Shown here piece after piece: positions 12,384 to 18,198 of a stretch of DNA of 64,000 nucleotides (positions are counted from its first letter, which is position 1; every line of letters begins with the position of its first letter). A program made the position numbers and the translations under genes. Source of the stretch: an uncultured Lachnospiraceae bacterium (GTDB lineage: Bacteria; Bacillota; Clostridia; Lachnospirales; Lachnospiraceae); the NCBI GenBank assembly GCA_902775555.1, contig CACYMQ010000003.1, forward strand, positions 83,851 to 147,850. The letters run 5' to 3'. The notes below the pieces were generated by a model. It saw only the letters and a list, made by a program, of their open reading frames with translations. It made no database searches and was not told the origin of the DNA.

Positions 12384-12450
12384 AAGATCCTTCGCTGCGC
12401 TCAGGATGACAGGGGCGCGCAGGATGACAGGGGCGCGCAGGATGACACGT
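12384..12450. repeat. short palindromic repeat copy with an 18-nt tandem extension
   Basis: It begins with gatccttcgctgcgctcagg, a member of the window-wide repeat family. The end of the unit (caggatgacaggggcgcg) is then repeated in tandem. It lies between the convergent ends of the carboxypeptidase and the radical SAM gene. Confidence 0.85.
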
Positions 12451-12454
12451 ATGG

Positions 12455-13525
12455 TCAGAAGAGGATATCCCGGAAGCAGATCCGGGGCTCGTCTTTCTCG
12501 AAATTCCAGCTGTGATAGGAGCCTCCCCTGCAGAAGCGGGCGGAGGGACAGCCGTTGCAGCGTTCGTTCCGTTCCGAAAGAGGCGTACGGAAGAACGAAA
12601 AGCCGTTTTGCCAGATGTCGGTAAAGGACTGACGAAGCACATTTCCCTGAATGGAGGTGGCATTTCTGGGGATGTCCAGGCAGGCGCCCACATCACCGTT
12701 CTCCATGATGGATGCCACATAGATCCCGGCGTTGCACAGGAAATACCAGTCCCGTACCTCTGCCTCATATTCCGGCCCGAGGTAGTGGCAGCAGCCATAC
12801 TCTACGGGAAGCTTCTGGTCCCGCTTCTCGCGGATGAAGTCAAGAAGCGCCCGGTGATCCTCAGGGGTCAGGAGCATATGCGGGAAGGAAAGCGCACGGC
12901 CGATGGGTTCGATCCCCGTAAGCCGCCATTCATTAAAATCAATCGTATTGAAAATGTCAAACAAAGCCGGGAGTTCCCGGATATTCTCATGGTTTACCAC
13001 CGTCGTCACCATAAGCGCCGCGTCACTGCAGTGGGTGATCAGGTGTGACAGTCCGGTCATGGCCTGTTCATAACCGCCGGGATAGTTCCGGTAACGGTCA
13101 TGTGTCTCCGGAAGCCCGTCGATACTGATGGAGATCCCGGTCATCCCGGTATCGTGGAGTTGTTTCGCCACCTCTTCGGTGATCAGGGTTCCGTTGCTGG
13201 TCATACCCCAGTGGAAACCAAGACGGTGGATATATTCCGTCAATGCAAAGAAATCCGGATAGAGCAGGGGTTCTCCGCCGGTCAGCGCGATCCGCACACC
13301 GGTACCGAAATGTTCCCGTACCTCATCCAGGATTTCTTTGTATTTCTCCAGAGGCAGTCCGTCAGGCCGGTCGGAGGAGCAGCTGCTTCCGCAGTGGAAG
13401 CAGGCCTCGTTGCATCGAAGTGTCAGCTCAAAGAAGAGCTGGCGCAGTTTGGGTTCCCGACACAGCTTCGCCTGATGGTCCGCCAGAATATTCAGATTTT
13501 GTTCTTTGATCTCCGATTTTGTCAT
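12455..13525 (-). CDS. radical SAM protein with SPASM-like C-terminus
   Basis: The 356-aa protein has the radical SAM cluster CNEACFHC (Cys38, 42, 45), the GGEPLL motif, and SMTSNG/SISIDG segments of the partial TIM barrel. The C-terminal third holds extra cysteines (CNAGIYVASIMENGDVGAC, CNGCPSARFC and a last PRIC), which is the pattern of a SPASM domain with auxiliary Fe-S clusters. SPASM proteins commonly modify ribosomal peptides. The gene immediately upstream encodes a small lipoprotein with repeated YGPP motifs, a plausible substrate, 66 bases away. The start is an ATG with GGAG 7 bases upstream. The reaction is unknown. Confidence 0.88.
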   Translation of the reverse strand: MTKSEIKEQNLNILADHQAKLCREPKLRQLFFELTLRCNEACFHCGSSCSSDRPDGLPLEKYKEILDEVREHFGTGVRIALTGGEPLLYPDFFALTEYIHRLGFHWGMTSNGTLITEEVAKQLHDTGMTGISISIDGLPETHDRYRNYPGGYEQAMTGLSHLITHCSDAALMVTTVVNHENIRELPALFDIFNTIDFNEWRLTGIEPIGRALSFPHMLLTPEDHRALLDFIREKRDQKLPVEYGCCHYLGPEYEAEVRDWYFLCNAGIYVASIMENGDVGACLDIPRNATSIQGNVLRQSFTDIWQNGFSFFRTPLSERNERCNGCPSARFCRGGSYHSWNFEKDEPRICFRDILF

Positions 13526-13541
13526 AGCGGTCTCCGTCTTG

Positions 13542-13559
13542 CTGCCGGTGAAACGGCAG
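13542..13559 (-). promoter_or_regulatory. hairpin between YGPP lipoprotein and radical SAM gene
   Basis: CTGCCG and CGGCAG (6 bp, loop GTGAAA) lie in the 66-base gap. Such a stem could stabilise the lipoprotein message or reduce read-through into the enzyme gene. No T-run follows, so it is not a full terminator. Confidence 0.4.
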
Positions 13560-13591
13560 GCATTCAGTCCGGTTCTTCGAGAGATGTCATA

Positions 13592-13888
13592 CTAGAAGCT
13601 GTCCGGGGGACCGTATACATCCACCGGTTCATTTTGATCTACCGTAAGCGGTTCGGTTACTGCTTCGGTATTCTTCTCGGTTCCCTTCGACTTCTTCTCC
13701 GTGGTGCCGGAGTCCTTCTCAAGATCCGGAGGCGGTCCGTAAACGGCTCTGTTCTCGTTCTCTTCTGTTTTGAGATCCGGGGGAGGTCCGTATACAGTTT
13801 CATTCTTATTATTACTGCACCCGACCACTGCAAACAGCGTGGTGGCAGCAAGCCCGATGAGCGCGGCCTTCTTCGGTCTGATCTTCAT
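13592..13888 (-). CDS. 98-aa lipoprotein with three YGPP motifs, candidate radical-SAM substrate
   Basis: I do not recognise the family. Residues 1-23 form a lipoprotein signal (MKIRPKKAALIGLAATTLFAVVG) with Cys24 as lipobox cysteine. The mature part is hydrophilic and contains TVYGPPPDL (residues 31-39), AVYGPPPDL (48-56) and a last DVYGPPDSF at the C-terminus (90-98), separated by Glu/Lys/Thr-rich spacers. AAGGAGGG lies upstream of the ATG at 13888. The radical SAM/SPASM gene follows directly, so the repeated Tyr-Gly-Pro-Pro units may be modification sites. This link is inference from gene order and motif repetition. It is separate from the divergent aldo/keto reductase. Confidence 0.75.
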   Translation of the reverse strand: MKIRPKKAALIGLAATTLFAVVGCSNNKNETVYGPPPDLKTEENENRAVYGPPPDLEKDSGTTEKKSKGTEKNTEAVTEPLTVDQNEPVDVYGPPDSF

Positions 13889-13916: not shown

Positions 13917-13945
13917 ATTATATTTTCCATGTGGGAAAAAAGCAA
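13917..13945 (-). promoter_or_regulatory. promoter for the YGPP lipoprotein gene
   Basis: On the minus strand TTGCTT (13945-13940) and TATAAT (13922-13917) are separated by 17 bases, about 30 bases before the start codon. Confidence 0.55.
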
Positions 13946-15716: not shown

Positions 15717-16034
15717 ATGACGTTGCTTTTGACGGTTTTTGCCGCGGTGATCAGTACGGTTGTATGGTACCGGCGGGATCCCGGGGATGATATGAAGGTT
15801 GGTGTACTCTGCTGGCTCTTCTGGGGGGCGTCCATCATGTGGCTGGTGGATGCGATCTTTGAATATAAGGAGTTGGGAGCGGAGTATTTCTCACCATCTT
15901 TGAAGGACATGCTGAATGACAGTTTTCTCGGACTCTCGGTGATCGCACTTGCGCTGGTCATCTGGCTGGTAGTTTTATTGATCAGGGATCCCAGGGGACG
16001 TGTACGCAGAATGCTGTTTAAAAAGGCGCAGTAA
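15717..16034 (+). CDS. small membrane protein of unknown function, 105 aa
   Basis: It has three predicted hydrophobic segments: LLLTVFAAVISTVVW, VGVLCWLFWGASIMWLVDAIF and LGLSVIALALVIWLVVLLI. The last ends in a basic tail (RDPRGRVRRMLFKKAQ), so the C-terminus is likely cytoplasmic. The middle portion FEYKELGAEYFSPSLKDMLND parallels the upstream protein. The ATG at 15717 follows GGGGGAAGAG. A hairpin lies right after the stop, before larB. Confidence 0.68.
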   Translation: MTLLLTVFAAVISTVVWYRRDPGDDMKVGVLCWLFWGASIMWLVDAIFEYKELGAEYFSPSLKDMLNDSFLGLSVIALALVIWLVVLLIRDPRGRVRRMLFKKAQ

Positions 16035-16038
16035 TGAA

Positions 16039-16068
16039 ATGGCGGCCCTCATTTACGAGGACCGCCAT
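16039..16068 (+). terminator. hairpin before larB
   Basis: ATGGCGG-CCTC pairs with GAGG-CCGCCAT around ATTTAC, with one mismatch. Only TATT follows, so it may be a weak terminator or attenuator between the membrane-protein pair and the lar genes. Confidence 0.45.
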
Positions 16069-16087
16069 TATTGAGAAGGATATGGCG

Positions 16088-16846
16088 ATGAATCGAGATA
16101 CAAGAACCATACTTGAGGAGGTGCGTGCCGGGACACTGTCCGTCGAGGATGCATGTCTGGAATTTAAGCAGAAACCCTTTGCCGATATCGGATATGCGAA
16201 GGTGGATCTGCACCGCAGGGTCCGGCAGGGGGTGCCGGAGATCATCTACGGAGCGGGGAAGACACCGGAGCAGATCATCGGGATCCTGCAGGCCATGAAG
16301 GAAGGCGGAGAGGACCGGGTTCTTATAACCCGTCTGTCCGAGGAATCCGCGAAGAAGGTGTCGGAGACGATGCCCATTTCCTACTATAGGGAGGCCCGCG
16401 TGGGGATCCTGGGGGGAATGCCACAGCCGGAGACGGAAGGAACCATCCTGATCGCCACGGGCGGGACCGGGGATATCCCGGTCGCGGAGGAAGCGGCCCT
16501 TACGGCGGAATATCTGGGAAACCGTGTGAAACGTCTCTATGATGTGGGGGTAGCGGGATTGCACCGGCTGCTCAGTCACAGTGAGGATGTTCTTCAGGCT
16601 TCGGTGATCATAGCGATCGCGGGGATGGAGGGAGCACTGGCCAGCGTCATCGGCGGACTGGCAGACTGCCCCGTCATTGCGGTTCCCACCAGCGTGGGCT
16701 ATGGGGCCTCGTTTGATGGACTTTCTGCCCTGCTGTCCATGCTGAATTCCTGTTCCAACTGCGTAACGGTGGTAAATATCGATAACGGGTTCGGTGCCGC
16801 ATTTACGGCGAGCCGCATCAATCATATGGGGAGGAAAGATCAATGA
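16088..16846 (+). CDS. larB: nickel-pincer cofactor biosynthesis protein LarB
   Basis: LarB carboxylates and hydrolyses nicotinic acid adenine dinucleotide to pyridinium-3,5-biscarboxylic acid mononucleotide, the first step to the Ni-pincer cofactor of lactate racemase. The 252-aa protein has the PurE-like C-terminal half (TGGTGDIPVAEEAALTAEYLG, GVAGLHRLL, AGMEGALASVIGGL, VPTSVGYGASFDGLSALLSML), which fits the family. The ATG at 16088 has GAGAAGGA 7 bases upstream. It overlaps larC by 4 bases (ATGA), indicating translational coupling. Confidence 0.92.
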   Translation: MNRDTRTILEEVRAGTLSVEDACLEFKQKPFADIGYAKVDLHRRVRQGVPEIIYGAGKTPEQIIGILQAMKEGGEDRVLITRLSEESAKKVSETMPISYYREARVGILGGMPQPETEGTILIATGGTGDIPVAEEAALTAEYLGNRVKRLYDVGVAGLHRLLSHSEDVLQASVIIAIAGMEGALASVIGGLADCPVIAVPTSVGYGASFDGLSALLSMLNSCSNCVTVVNIDNGFGAAFTASRINHMGRKDQ

Positions 16847-18198
16847 GAACACTGTATCTTGACTGCGGCATGGGAGCTGCCGGGGACATGCTGACGGCGG
16901 CACTTCTGGAGCTTCTTCCGGAACCGGAGAAGATGATCGAACGACTGAACCGGCTGGGCATCCCGGATGTGGAATACCGGATGGAACCCGCAGAGAAATG
17001 CGGGATCACCGGGACACATGTCCGGGTGCTGGTACATGGTGAGGAGGAGGGTGAGCACCACCACCATGATCATGATCACCACGACCACGATCACCACGAT
17101 CATGCCCACCATGATCATGATCATCACGACTATGCCCACCACGATCATGCCCACCACGATCATGATCACCATGACCACGATCATCACGACCATGGACACG
17201 ATCATGCCCACCACGATCATGCCCACGATCACCACGATCATGCCCACCATGGACATCACCATCATGTTCATCGGACGCTCGGAGAGATCCGGGATCTTGT
17301 GATGCAGCTTCCTCTGGAAGAGCCGGTCCGTGACGATATCATACAGGTCTATACCTCCATTGCGGAGGCAGAGGGACACGTGCACGGGAAGCCGGTGGAG
17401 GAGATACATTTTCATGAGGTCGGGACCTGGGATGCGGTTGCGGATGTAACGGCTGTTTCCATGCTGATTCACGAACTGCATCCGGATGAGATCATCGTTT
17501 CACCGGTTCATGTGGGCAGCGGACAGGTGGAGTGCGCCCACGGGATCCTTCCCGTACCGGCACCCGCGACTGCGTACCTGCTTCGGGACATCCCCATCTA
17601 TGGCGGAAAGATCCGCGGAGAACTCTGTACTCCCACCGGGGCGGCACTGCTACGGCATTTTGCCACCGGATTCGGAGAGATGCCGGTGCTCCGTGTGACA
17701 GGGATCGGTTATGGTATGGGAAAGAAAGACTTTCCCGCGGCCAACTGCATCCGGGCGATCCTGGGAGGATCGGAAGGGAGCCGGGATACCATCCTGTGCC
17801 TGTCCTGCAATGTGGATGACATGACCCCGGAGGCGACGGGGTATGCGATGGAGCAGCTCTATGCTGCAGGGGCAAGGGAAGTCTTTACGGTTCCTGTGGG
17901 GATGAAGAAGAACCGGCCGGGAACGTTGCTGCAGGTGATCTGTACGGAAGAGAAGAAGGATGCGCTGGTAAAATGTCTGTTCCTTCATACCACGACGCTT
18001 GGTATACGGGAGCAGAGGATGGGGCGTTACACCCTGACCCGTCAGATCGAGACCGTAAATACGCCCTACGGTCCGGTACGCAGAAAGACGGCGTCGGGCT
18101 ATGGAGTGACGCGCAGCAAATGGGAATACGATGACCTTGCAAGGATCGCAAGGGAGACCGGGATGTCACTGGAGGAGATCCGAAAGAAACTGGTATGA
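16843..18198 (+). CDS. larC: nickel-pincer cofactor nickel chelatase LarC, His-rich
   Basis: LarC inserts nickel into the bis-thiocarboxylated pyridinium mononucleotide in a CTP-dependent reaction. It opens TLYLDCGMGAAGDMLTAALLELL and has ...VEEIHFHEVGTWDAVADVTAV, HVGSGQVECAHGILPVPAPAT, GELCTPTGAALL and SCNVDDMTPEATGYAME. Residues about 72-145 are a nearly pure His/Asp tract (HHDHDHHDHA-type repeats), a probable nickel store. In Lactiplantibacillus the gene is split and joined by a programmed frameshift; here LarC1 and LarC2 parts are one 451-aa frame. It is followed by larE. Confidence 0.95.
   Translation: MRTLYLDCGMGAAGDMLTAALLELLPEPEKMIERLNRLGIPDVEYRMEPAEKCGITGTHVRVLVHGEEEGEHHHHDHDHHDHDHHDHAHHDHDHHDYAHHDHAHHDHDHHDHDHHDHGHDHAHHDHAHDHHDHAHHGHHHHVHRTLGEIRDLVMQLPLEEPVRDDIIQVYTSIAEAEGHVHGKPVEEIHFHEVGTWDAVADVTAVSMLIHELHPDEIIVSPVHVGSGQVECAHGILPVPAPATAYLLRDIPIYGGKIRGELCTPTGAALLRHFATGFGEMPVLRVTGIGYGMGKKDFPAANCIRAILGGSEGSRDTILCLSCNVDDMTPEATGYAMEQLYAAGAREVFTVPVGMKKNRPGTLLQVICTEEKKDALVKCLFLHTTTLGIREQRMGRYTLTRQIETVNTPYGPVRRKTASGYGVTRSKWEYDDLARIARETGMSLEEIRKKLV

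Follow-up and report, generated by a model that had tools for sequence, protein, structure and literature searches.

A gene for a small lipoprotein with three YGPP repeats lies next to a gene for a radical S-adenosylmethionine (rSAM)/SPASM enzyme in the genome (3.0 Mb) of an uncultured Lachnospiraceae bacterium, within a stretch of 64,000 nt that was analysed as a whole and is called the window here. The gene pair and its motif were both found again in other genomes, and the pairing of a YGPP protein with this enzyme recurs widely in rumen and gut bacteria. Very probably, the enzyme modifies the YGPP motif. The best overall explanation, to which we give about even chances, is that the two genes encode the substrate and the enzyme of a splicease-like system, which would yield an exported protein with ketoamide sites.

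The initial annotation had described a 98-aa lipoprotein with three YGPP repeats, followed 66 bases later on the same strand by an rSAM/SPASM gene, and this description was confirmed. The ORF (open reading frame) of the lipoprotein, the proposed substrate, occupies positions 13592–13888 of the minus strand. The gene of the enzyme, the proposed maturase of 356 aa, extends from 12455 to 13525 on the same strand, leaving a gap of 66 nt (13525 to 13592) to the upstream lipoprotein gene. The assignment of the enzyme is based on Pfam, NCBIfam, and an AlphaFold model; the Pfam domains PF04055 (88.9 bits) and PF13186 (SPASM, 27.9 bits) are both over their cut-offs. The best NCBIfam match is TIGR04133 (rSAM_w_lipo), with 270 bits, which is below the cut-off of 425. 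The CxxxCxxC motif begins at residue 38, so that little room is left for an N-terminal RiPP recognition element (RRE; RiPP, ribosomally synthesized and post-translationally modified peptide).

Bacterial lipoproteins are recognized by a signal peptide that ends in a lipobox Cys, and, judged from the sequence MKIRPKKAALIGLAATTLFAVVGC, the window protein has both (13817–13888, minus strand, up to Cys24). Cys24, in the lipobox ...VVGC, is the only Cys of the protein, which is probably exported via Sec, lipidated, and displayed at the surface. Behind the signal peptide, the chain is acidic and of low complexity; it contains TVYGPPPDL and AVYGPPPDL and ends with DVYGPPDSF. The three VYGPP sites start at residues 32, 49, and 91 and are encoded on the minus strand by GTA TAC GGA CCT CCC (13781–13795), GTT TAC GGA CCG CCT (13730–13744), and GTA TAC GGT CCC CCG (13604–13618), respectively. 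The synonymous codons differ among the three copies, which favours selection at the protein level over a recent duplication of the DNA. All Tyr residues of the protein (33, 50, and 92) reside within these sites. A Pfam scan of the lipoprotein revealed no family at E ≤ 1, and an NCBIfam scan a single match far below the cut-off (11.8 versus 42 bits). In an alignment of nine lipoproteins of the genus, M1, K2, P5, K7, G12, L13, and C24 are invariant; outside of the signal peptide and the Cys, the only invariant stretches are the first and the last VYGPP. In a wider set of 18 lipoproteins, the invariant positions are K2, C24, one Pro of the first site, and the last VYGPP.

Occurrence of YGPP proteins with the enzyme

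The association within the genus was analysed with 61 genomes, i.e. the source genome, 36 others of the genus, and 24 of the order. At E ≤ 1e-40, the enzyme was found in 15 of them, all from the genus. In nine of these 15 (G000, G002, G006, G009, G012, G018, G023, G030, and G035), a YGPP lipoprotein adjoins the enzyme, and in G027 the neighbour is a zinc-ribbon protein with TIYGPPP. Four genomes (G001, G007, G021, and G026) have no YGPP lipoprotein beside the enzyme and encode it elsewhere: on the contig of the enzyme gene, at a distance of about 5.6 kb, in G001 and G021, and as fragments at contig ends in G026. For G007, YGPP is present in four of the six profile matches examined; the two matches without it have E values of 3e-12 and 2e-7. 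G034 has two incomplete genes side by side, a lipoprotein gene of which the 5′ end is present and an enzyme gene of which the 3′ end is present.

Of the 15 genomes with the enzyme, 13 had strong matches (E < 1e-8) to a profile built from the nine lipoproteins (A2), compared to none of the other 22 genomes of the genus; the match in G034 covers only the signal-peptide end. Fisher's test for this difference gives p = 3e-8, which is not a true probability because the genomes are related and several are incomplete. For weak A2 matches in enzyme-negative genomes (E from 1e-5 to 0.01), 15 loci were fetched (L114–L118 and L120–L129), and none contained a frame with YGPP.

A search for further YGPP-coding DNA in the source genome was not productive. 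The pattern NTNTAYGGNCCNCC had 12 matches, compared to 20 for the reversed-pattern control. Three of the 12 are in the lipoprotein itself, and the other nine were classified by eye as two P-loop/helicase-type proteins, two long frames, and five frames of 21–58 codons.

A set of named genomes comprised the best 80 of 572 confirmed relatives of the enzyme; two of its loci overlap with the genus set (L034 = L005, L027 = L015). In 73 of the 80 loci, a YGPP ORF ends at most 400 nt upstream of the enzyme gene on the same strand, and in L045 and L049 the gene of a YGPP protein lies just downstream, so that 75 of 80 have a YGPP neighbour. Each genome of the other five loci (L021, L025, L027, L028, and L030) encodes a YGPP lipoprotein elsewhere, as revealed by a profile named A4; the weakest of these matches is in the genome of L030 (E 1e-5, one VYGPP). 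In L025, the contig extends only 75 nt upstream of the enzyme gene. YGPP is present in eight of the 4931 other frames of these loci (50 codons or more, located on the minus strand or downstream), and five of the eight are the genes already mentioned for L045 and L049.

Clustering of all neighbours of at least 80 codons revealed one family that is common to 67 of the 80 loci, with YGPP in 97% of its 101 ORFs. By position, four other large clusters are shadow frames inside the enzyme gene. The next real cluster, ABC ATPase-like, is present at 10 loci on either strand.

The 114 YGPP ORFs contain 312 copies of YGPP, compared to 0.4 in shuffled sequences, and a chance motif was therefore rejected, also in view of the low number of other frames with YGPP. 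Up to eight YGPP ORFs are present per locus (L066, L090). At 382 XYG sites, X is Val in 232 cases and Leu in 67.

Two further samples, neither of them selected for YGPP, were analysed. For the first, 391 genomes of the class were drawn evenly and searched with TIGR04133 at E ≤ 1e-60. Matches were found in 16 of them, including the source genome, resulting in 15 new loci, two of which have the same DNA as named-genome loci (L164 = L055, L170 = L098). A protein with Tyr-Gly-x-Pro adjoins the enzyme in 13 of the 15. In the other two, small proteins that appear membrane-bound by eye are encoded just downstream of the enzyme, with EYAPP and MYGSP in L161 and AYGID in L163; profile A4 had no match in either genome. 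For the second sample, 200 genomes of the family were searched with a zinc-ribbon-type enzyme at E ≤ 1e-90. Nine matched, i.e. the source genome, two genomes already in the class sample, and six with new loci. Zinc-ribbon partners are found at two of the six (L179, IYGPMP; L180, IYGPKP), exported YGPP partners at three (L181, L183, and L186), and no YGPP-type neighbour beside the enzyme at L182. The genome of L182 (G946) encodes, on a contig other than that of the enzyme gene, a protein of membrane type by eye (L192:1390–2160, minus strand), which has three YGPP in its C-terminal tail and represents another kind of partner.

The partners thus comprise several kinds of protein, namely lipoproteins, dockerin proteins, zinc-ribbon proteins, proteins whose N-terminus is twin-arginine-like by pattern (L040, L052, and L061), and one with a Big_2 domain (L029). 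In six YGPP proteins that were picked by eye, the dockerin domain PF00404 is over the cut-off; a profile built from these six Pfam-confirmed segments detected a dockerin in 40 of the 114 YGPP ORFs, distributed over 21 of the 80 loci. The feature mostly kept across all partners is X-Tyr-Gly with a Pro close behind. In other zinc-ribbon partners, it takes the forms YGPPP (L017), YGPPI (L019), and YGSPM (L020). These three, L179, and L180 adjoin a separate clade of the enzyme and have no export signal by eye, suggesting that the modification may also serve intracellular proteins.

The initial annotation had reasoned that YGPP lipoproteins found mostly without an adjacent rSAM gene would speak against a functional link; the reverse was observed, i.e. 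YGPP proteins accompany the rSAM gene. Its proposal that the YGPP repeats are sites modified by the neighbouring enzyme stands as far as the association of motif and enzyme is concerned, and from this association we infer the modification itself.

Relation to named protein families

The window pair resembles the TIGR04133/TIGR04134 systems of Bacteroidota and others, in which genes for an rSAM/SPASM enzyme and a lipoprotein are likewise adjacent. Partners that exceed the TIGR04134 cut-off (L153, L155, and L160) have Tyr-Gly-x-Pro close after the lipobox, a feature seen here that is not part of the stated definition of the family. Plasmid records contain such systems from Parabacteroides distasonis (L153, CEYGSPHANF) and Phocaeicola massiliensis (L155, CEYGTPSADY). 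The partner in Treponema saccharophilum (L154, CYGMPENYY) is annotated as such a lipoprotein and had no TIGR04134 match at E ≤ 1e-20. In contrast, the window enzyme is below the TIGR04133 cut-off, and TIGR04134 (cut-off 39.8 bits) had no match to the window lipoprotein at E ≤ 1. Furthermore, the window lipoprotein is of low complexity with three sites, while the partners in L153, L155, and L160 have a single site, which in L153 and L160 precedes a carboxypeptidase-regulatory-like domain (over the cut-off in L153, just below it in L160). L160, which is from the class of the window, has an enzyme with 385 bits to TIGR04133 and a partner with CGMYGPPPRS and 52 bits to TIGR04134; by these scores and its motif, it bridges the window-type pairs and TIGR04133/TIGR04134. 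The proteins of the window are outside both curated models, yet by architecture and motif they belong with the rSAM/lipoprotein and XYG systems.

Two trees of the enzymes were calculated, a first one with 41 rows and a second one with 36 chosen enzymes, where NirJ-type rows take the opposite side. Of the 80 enzymes from named genomes, 14 are in both trees. The rows dropped for the second tree were the second rSAM protein of the source genome, BlsE, MftC, the enzyme of a GDL-motif system, and one Paenibacillus row. The 36-row tree has separate groups for enzymes with exported YGPP partners (support 97/99), with zinc-ribbon partners (96/91), of TIGR04133 together with L160 (97/89), and with small membrane proteins (99/98). 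TIGR04103-like enzymes are placed beside TIGR04133 with 91/89, just under the mark for firm support.

The GDL-motif system (TIGR03913 with DUF1843 peptides) is similar in that two of the three L175 peptides have Tyr-Gly near the N-terminus (RMLYGG, KPYGVA), and its enzyme branches with the TIGR04103-like enzymes (98/98). It differs in that the peptides are short and have no export signal by eye, and the third one (RPMYMA) has YM.

A literature search, which did not include Scott et al. 2022, found no paper that combines YGPP with radical SAM or names TIGR04133/TIGR04134. PMC10533398, citing Scott et al. 2022, mentions 939 splicease systems that are predicted and 27 others that have been characterised. 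This survey of 939 systems may already list part of the loci described here.

The proposed reaction and its alternatives

In the proposed mechanism, the lipoprotein and the rSAM genes encode a substrate and its enzyme. The rSAM/SPASM enzyme would act in the cytosol, prior to export, on each X-Tyr-Gly-Pro-Pro of the preprotein, and a splicease-like removal of tyramine from X-Tyr-Gly would generate alpha-keto-beta-amino residues. Sec export, lipidation of Cys24, and surface display of up to three electrophilic alpha-ketoamide sites would then follow, and ruminococcal equivalents with dockerins could join cellulosomes. For tyramine excision at the motif as such, we regard the case as evenly balanced.

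The precedent is PlpX, which, together with PlpY, is reported to excise tyramine from Xaa-Tyr-Gly, leaving an alpha-keto amide, and the PlpX-type spliceases are described as family IPR026482 (PMC11002830). PlpXY naturally splices MYG and LYG, and the splice tags PIRPLYGLPI and PIRPGYGLPI, i.e. with LYGLPI or GYGLPI, have been used (PMC10533398); several splice sites per precursor are possible according to PMC10373908. The tags have the form XYGxP and hence the same pattern as the YGPP-type sites. The target X-Tyr-Gly is also the same, and the window protein, with three VYG sites, is similar to the multi-site precursors. In contrast to the PlpXY substrates, it is predicted to be exported, and neither a Nif11 nor a nitrile-hydratase leader was seen. 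Enzymes similar to TIGR04103, which we take to be equivalent to IPR026482, were found in 2 of 398 genomes of a phylum sample at E ≤ 1e-60, none of them over the cut-off. In L158, the gene of such an enzyme is preceded by that of a peptide with AYG, which is Nif11-like by eye. The TIGR04103-like loci L158 and L159 fit loosely with a splicease reaction.

Several observations argue against a splicease. The window enzyme has only 111 bits to TIGR04103, below the cut-off of 725, and AhbD, MftC, NirJ2, and NirJ score slightly higher (118–140 bits). PlpX works with the RRE protein PlpY, and among the clustered neighbours, i.e. those of at least 80 codons, none apart from the YGPP family is widely conserved here. 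The motif is not uniform: some repeats have no Gly after the Tyr (TEYEAP in L043 and L055, VYSAP in L078, EYAPP in L161), the candidate AYGID in L163 has no Pro, and, of the 832 Tyr located beyond residue 25 of the 114 ORFs (dockerins counted as well), 456 lack a following Gly. At five loci (L009, L013, L014, L021, and L027, the DNA of L015), a zinc-ribbon protein without YGPP directly precedes the enzyme. Finally, the 41-row tree, which contains long rows, unites the TIGR04103-like enzymes with the GDL enzyme (98/98), unjoined to TIGR04133, and leaves the backbone open; both trees have a small outgroup sample, and the PlpX sequence is not among their rows. The zinc-ribbon proteins at the five loci have hydrophobic segments and mostly a KWWRYF end, and the YGPP lipoproteins are encoded elsewhere in these genomes.

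Another rSAM reaction at the YGPP motif is a serious competitor, albeit one that we consider rather less probable than an even chance. Tyr could be cross-linked by a C–C or C–O bond (three-residue cyclophane type) or decarboxylated, or the motif could be epimerised or C-methylated. The AlphaFold model of the window enzyme (pLDDT, predicted local distance difference test, 89.7) resembles BlsE, SkfB, SuiB, anSME, PqqE, and a thioether enzyme of the sactipeptide type. Among the nearest solved structures, SkfB, SuiB, anSME, and the thioether enzyme are SPASM enzymes that modify peptides by other chemistries; the likeness of the folds does not settle which reaction is catalysed. MftC, which scores the window enzyme with 120 bits, near the 111 bits of TIGR04103, is reported to decarboxylate Tyr and then to join it to the adjacent Val (PMC8326336). 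On the other hand, X, Tyr, and Gly agree with the splicease motif, and the residue after Tyr-Gly varies by lineage (P, S, T, M, and V). There is neither a Cys nor, besides Pro, a constant partner residue near the Tyr, so that a reaction at the Tyr alone is likelier than a cross-link. Pro itself seems an unlikely cyclophane partner. Thioether (sactipeptide) chemistry was rejected, because the lipidated Cys24 is the only Cys of the mature window protein.

Short repeat-bearing precursors next to an rSAM enzyme look like RiPP loci, and the modified YGPP part could accordingly be cleaved from the rest of the protein and act as a free peptide signal or antimicrobial. We regard this as unlikely, because the lipobox, the dockerins, and the membrane-anchored forms point to a protein that is retained, the zinc-ribbon partners have no obvious export signal, and no transporter or peptidase family is common to many of the 80 loci, the ABC ATPase-like cluster being restricted to 10. 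Very improbable is the view that YGPP is a binding motif, i.e. a polyproline ligand, and that the enzyme makes a small molecule and is merely co-regulated: Pro-rich motifs often bind proteins, and the small-molecule enzyme BlsE is the top match among the solved structures by both sequence and fold, but the co-occurrence persists where the two genes are unlinked, and the different kinds of partners have little in common except the YGPP-type motif.

Possible function and genomic surroundings

If tyramine is excised, gut and rumen bacteria would carry arrays of electrophilic beta-residues on their surfaces and probably on cellulosomes. Splicease products are reported to inhibit proteases (PMC10373908, PMC11117315), and the YGPP proteins could, by analogy, be reversible covalent protease inhibitors, a role that we put forward tentatively; that it is based on analogy counts against it. 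Val or Leu at X would be the P1 residue before the ketone, and the following Gly-Pro-Pro would resist cleavage. Together with surface anchoring and multiple sites, this would suit inhibitors that remain uncleaved.

The link of YGPP to dockerins at 21 of the 80 loci makes an inhibitor role at cellulosomes plausible, again by analogy. The dockerin-borne protease inhibitors of cellulosomes, serpins and Dpi, are not known to be modified by an rSAM enzyme. Dockerin-bearing protease inhibitors that protect cellulosomes are described for C. thermocellum, i.e. serpins and Dpi, which are likewise exported, dockerin-bearing, non-catalytic partners of the cellulosome (PMC12484212), and serpin-dockerin ORFs are reported for R. 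flavefaciens (PMC2721979).

A still broader picture is possible but doubtful, namely that a widespread class of surface proteins in rumen and gut bacteria, comprising lipoproteins as well as Tat-exported and dockerin-bearing proteins, carries many genetically encoded alpha-keto-beta-amino residues, introduced by a stand-alone splicease without RRE, as covalent protease-inhibiting coats of the cell and the cellulosome. In that case, all enzymes of TIGR04133, those of Bacteroidota included, would be spliceases with YGxP as their target. The observations described here provide the named but functionally blank TIGR04133/TIGR04134 with a sharply defined, testable target motif as well as a likely reaction. 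Should tyramine indeed be excised, the enzymes could also serve as compact tools by which ketoamides are introduced into proteins.

At L159 (1015–3507, minus strand), a TIGR04103-like rSAM gene (209 bits, below the cut-off) follows the gene of a chagasin-domain protein (PF09394 over the cut-off) that has at least seven KYAAP repeats, without Gly after the Tyr. L159 is possibly a sister system, the modified protein being a protease inhibitor in its own right.

The initial annotation had also placed a promoter before the lipoprotein gene and a hairpin between the two genes, which would have suited a substrate made in excess over its enzyme. A putative promoter is visible by eye at 13917–13945 (minus strand), with a perfect TATAAT (13917–13922) and, 17 nt upstream, TTGCTT (13940–13945), and a GGAGGG precedes the ATG of the lipoprotein gene, also by eye. 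A scan for consensus promoters did not list it, and the two hits of the scan in the window are no more than in shuffled sequences. The 66-nt gap can form a weak, GC-rich stem at about 13540–13562 (minus strand), but shuffled sequences fold just as well as this region (z-score −0.15). The argument of substrate excess that was built on the hairpin is therefore unsupported, and the hairpin was rejected as an expression control.

Two candidate links to other functions were also discarded. The neighbouring S66 peptidase was not seen by eye among the 25 largest neighbour clusters, and PADLOC gave, for a defence system, only a generic similarity to viperin (best 72 bits). The space that separates the S66 peptidase gene from the end of the enzyme gene contains 2.8 copies of an 18-bp tandem repeat (12397–12447). 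Elsewhere in the window, an AIRC-domain gene (16034–16846), presumably LarB-like, precedes a plus-strand gene for a LarC-type nickel insertion protein (16843–18198, PF01969), the long His/Asp-rich insert of which is encoded by a tandem array at about 17062–17255.

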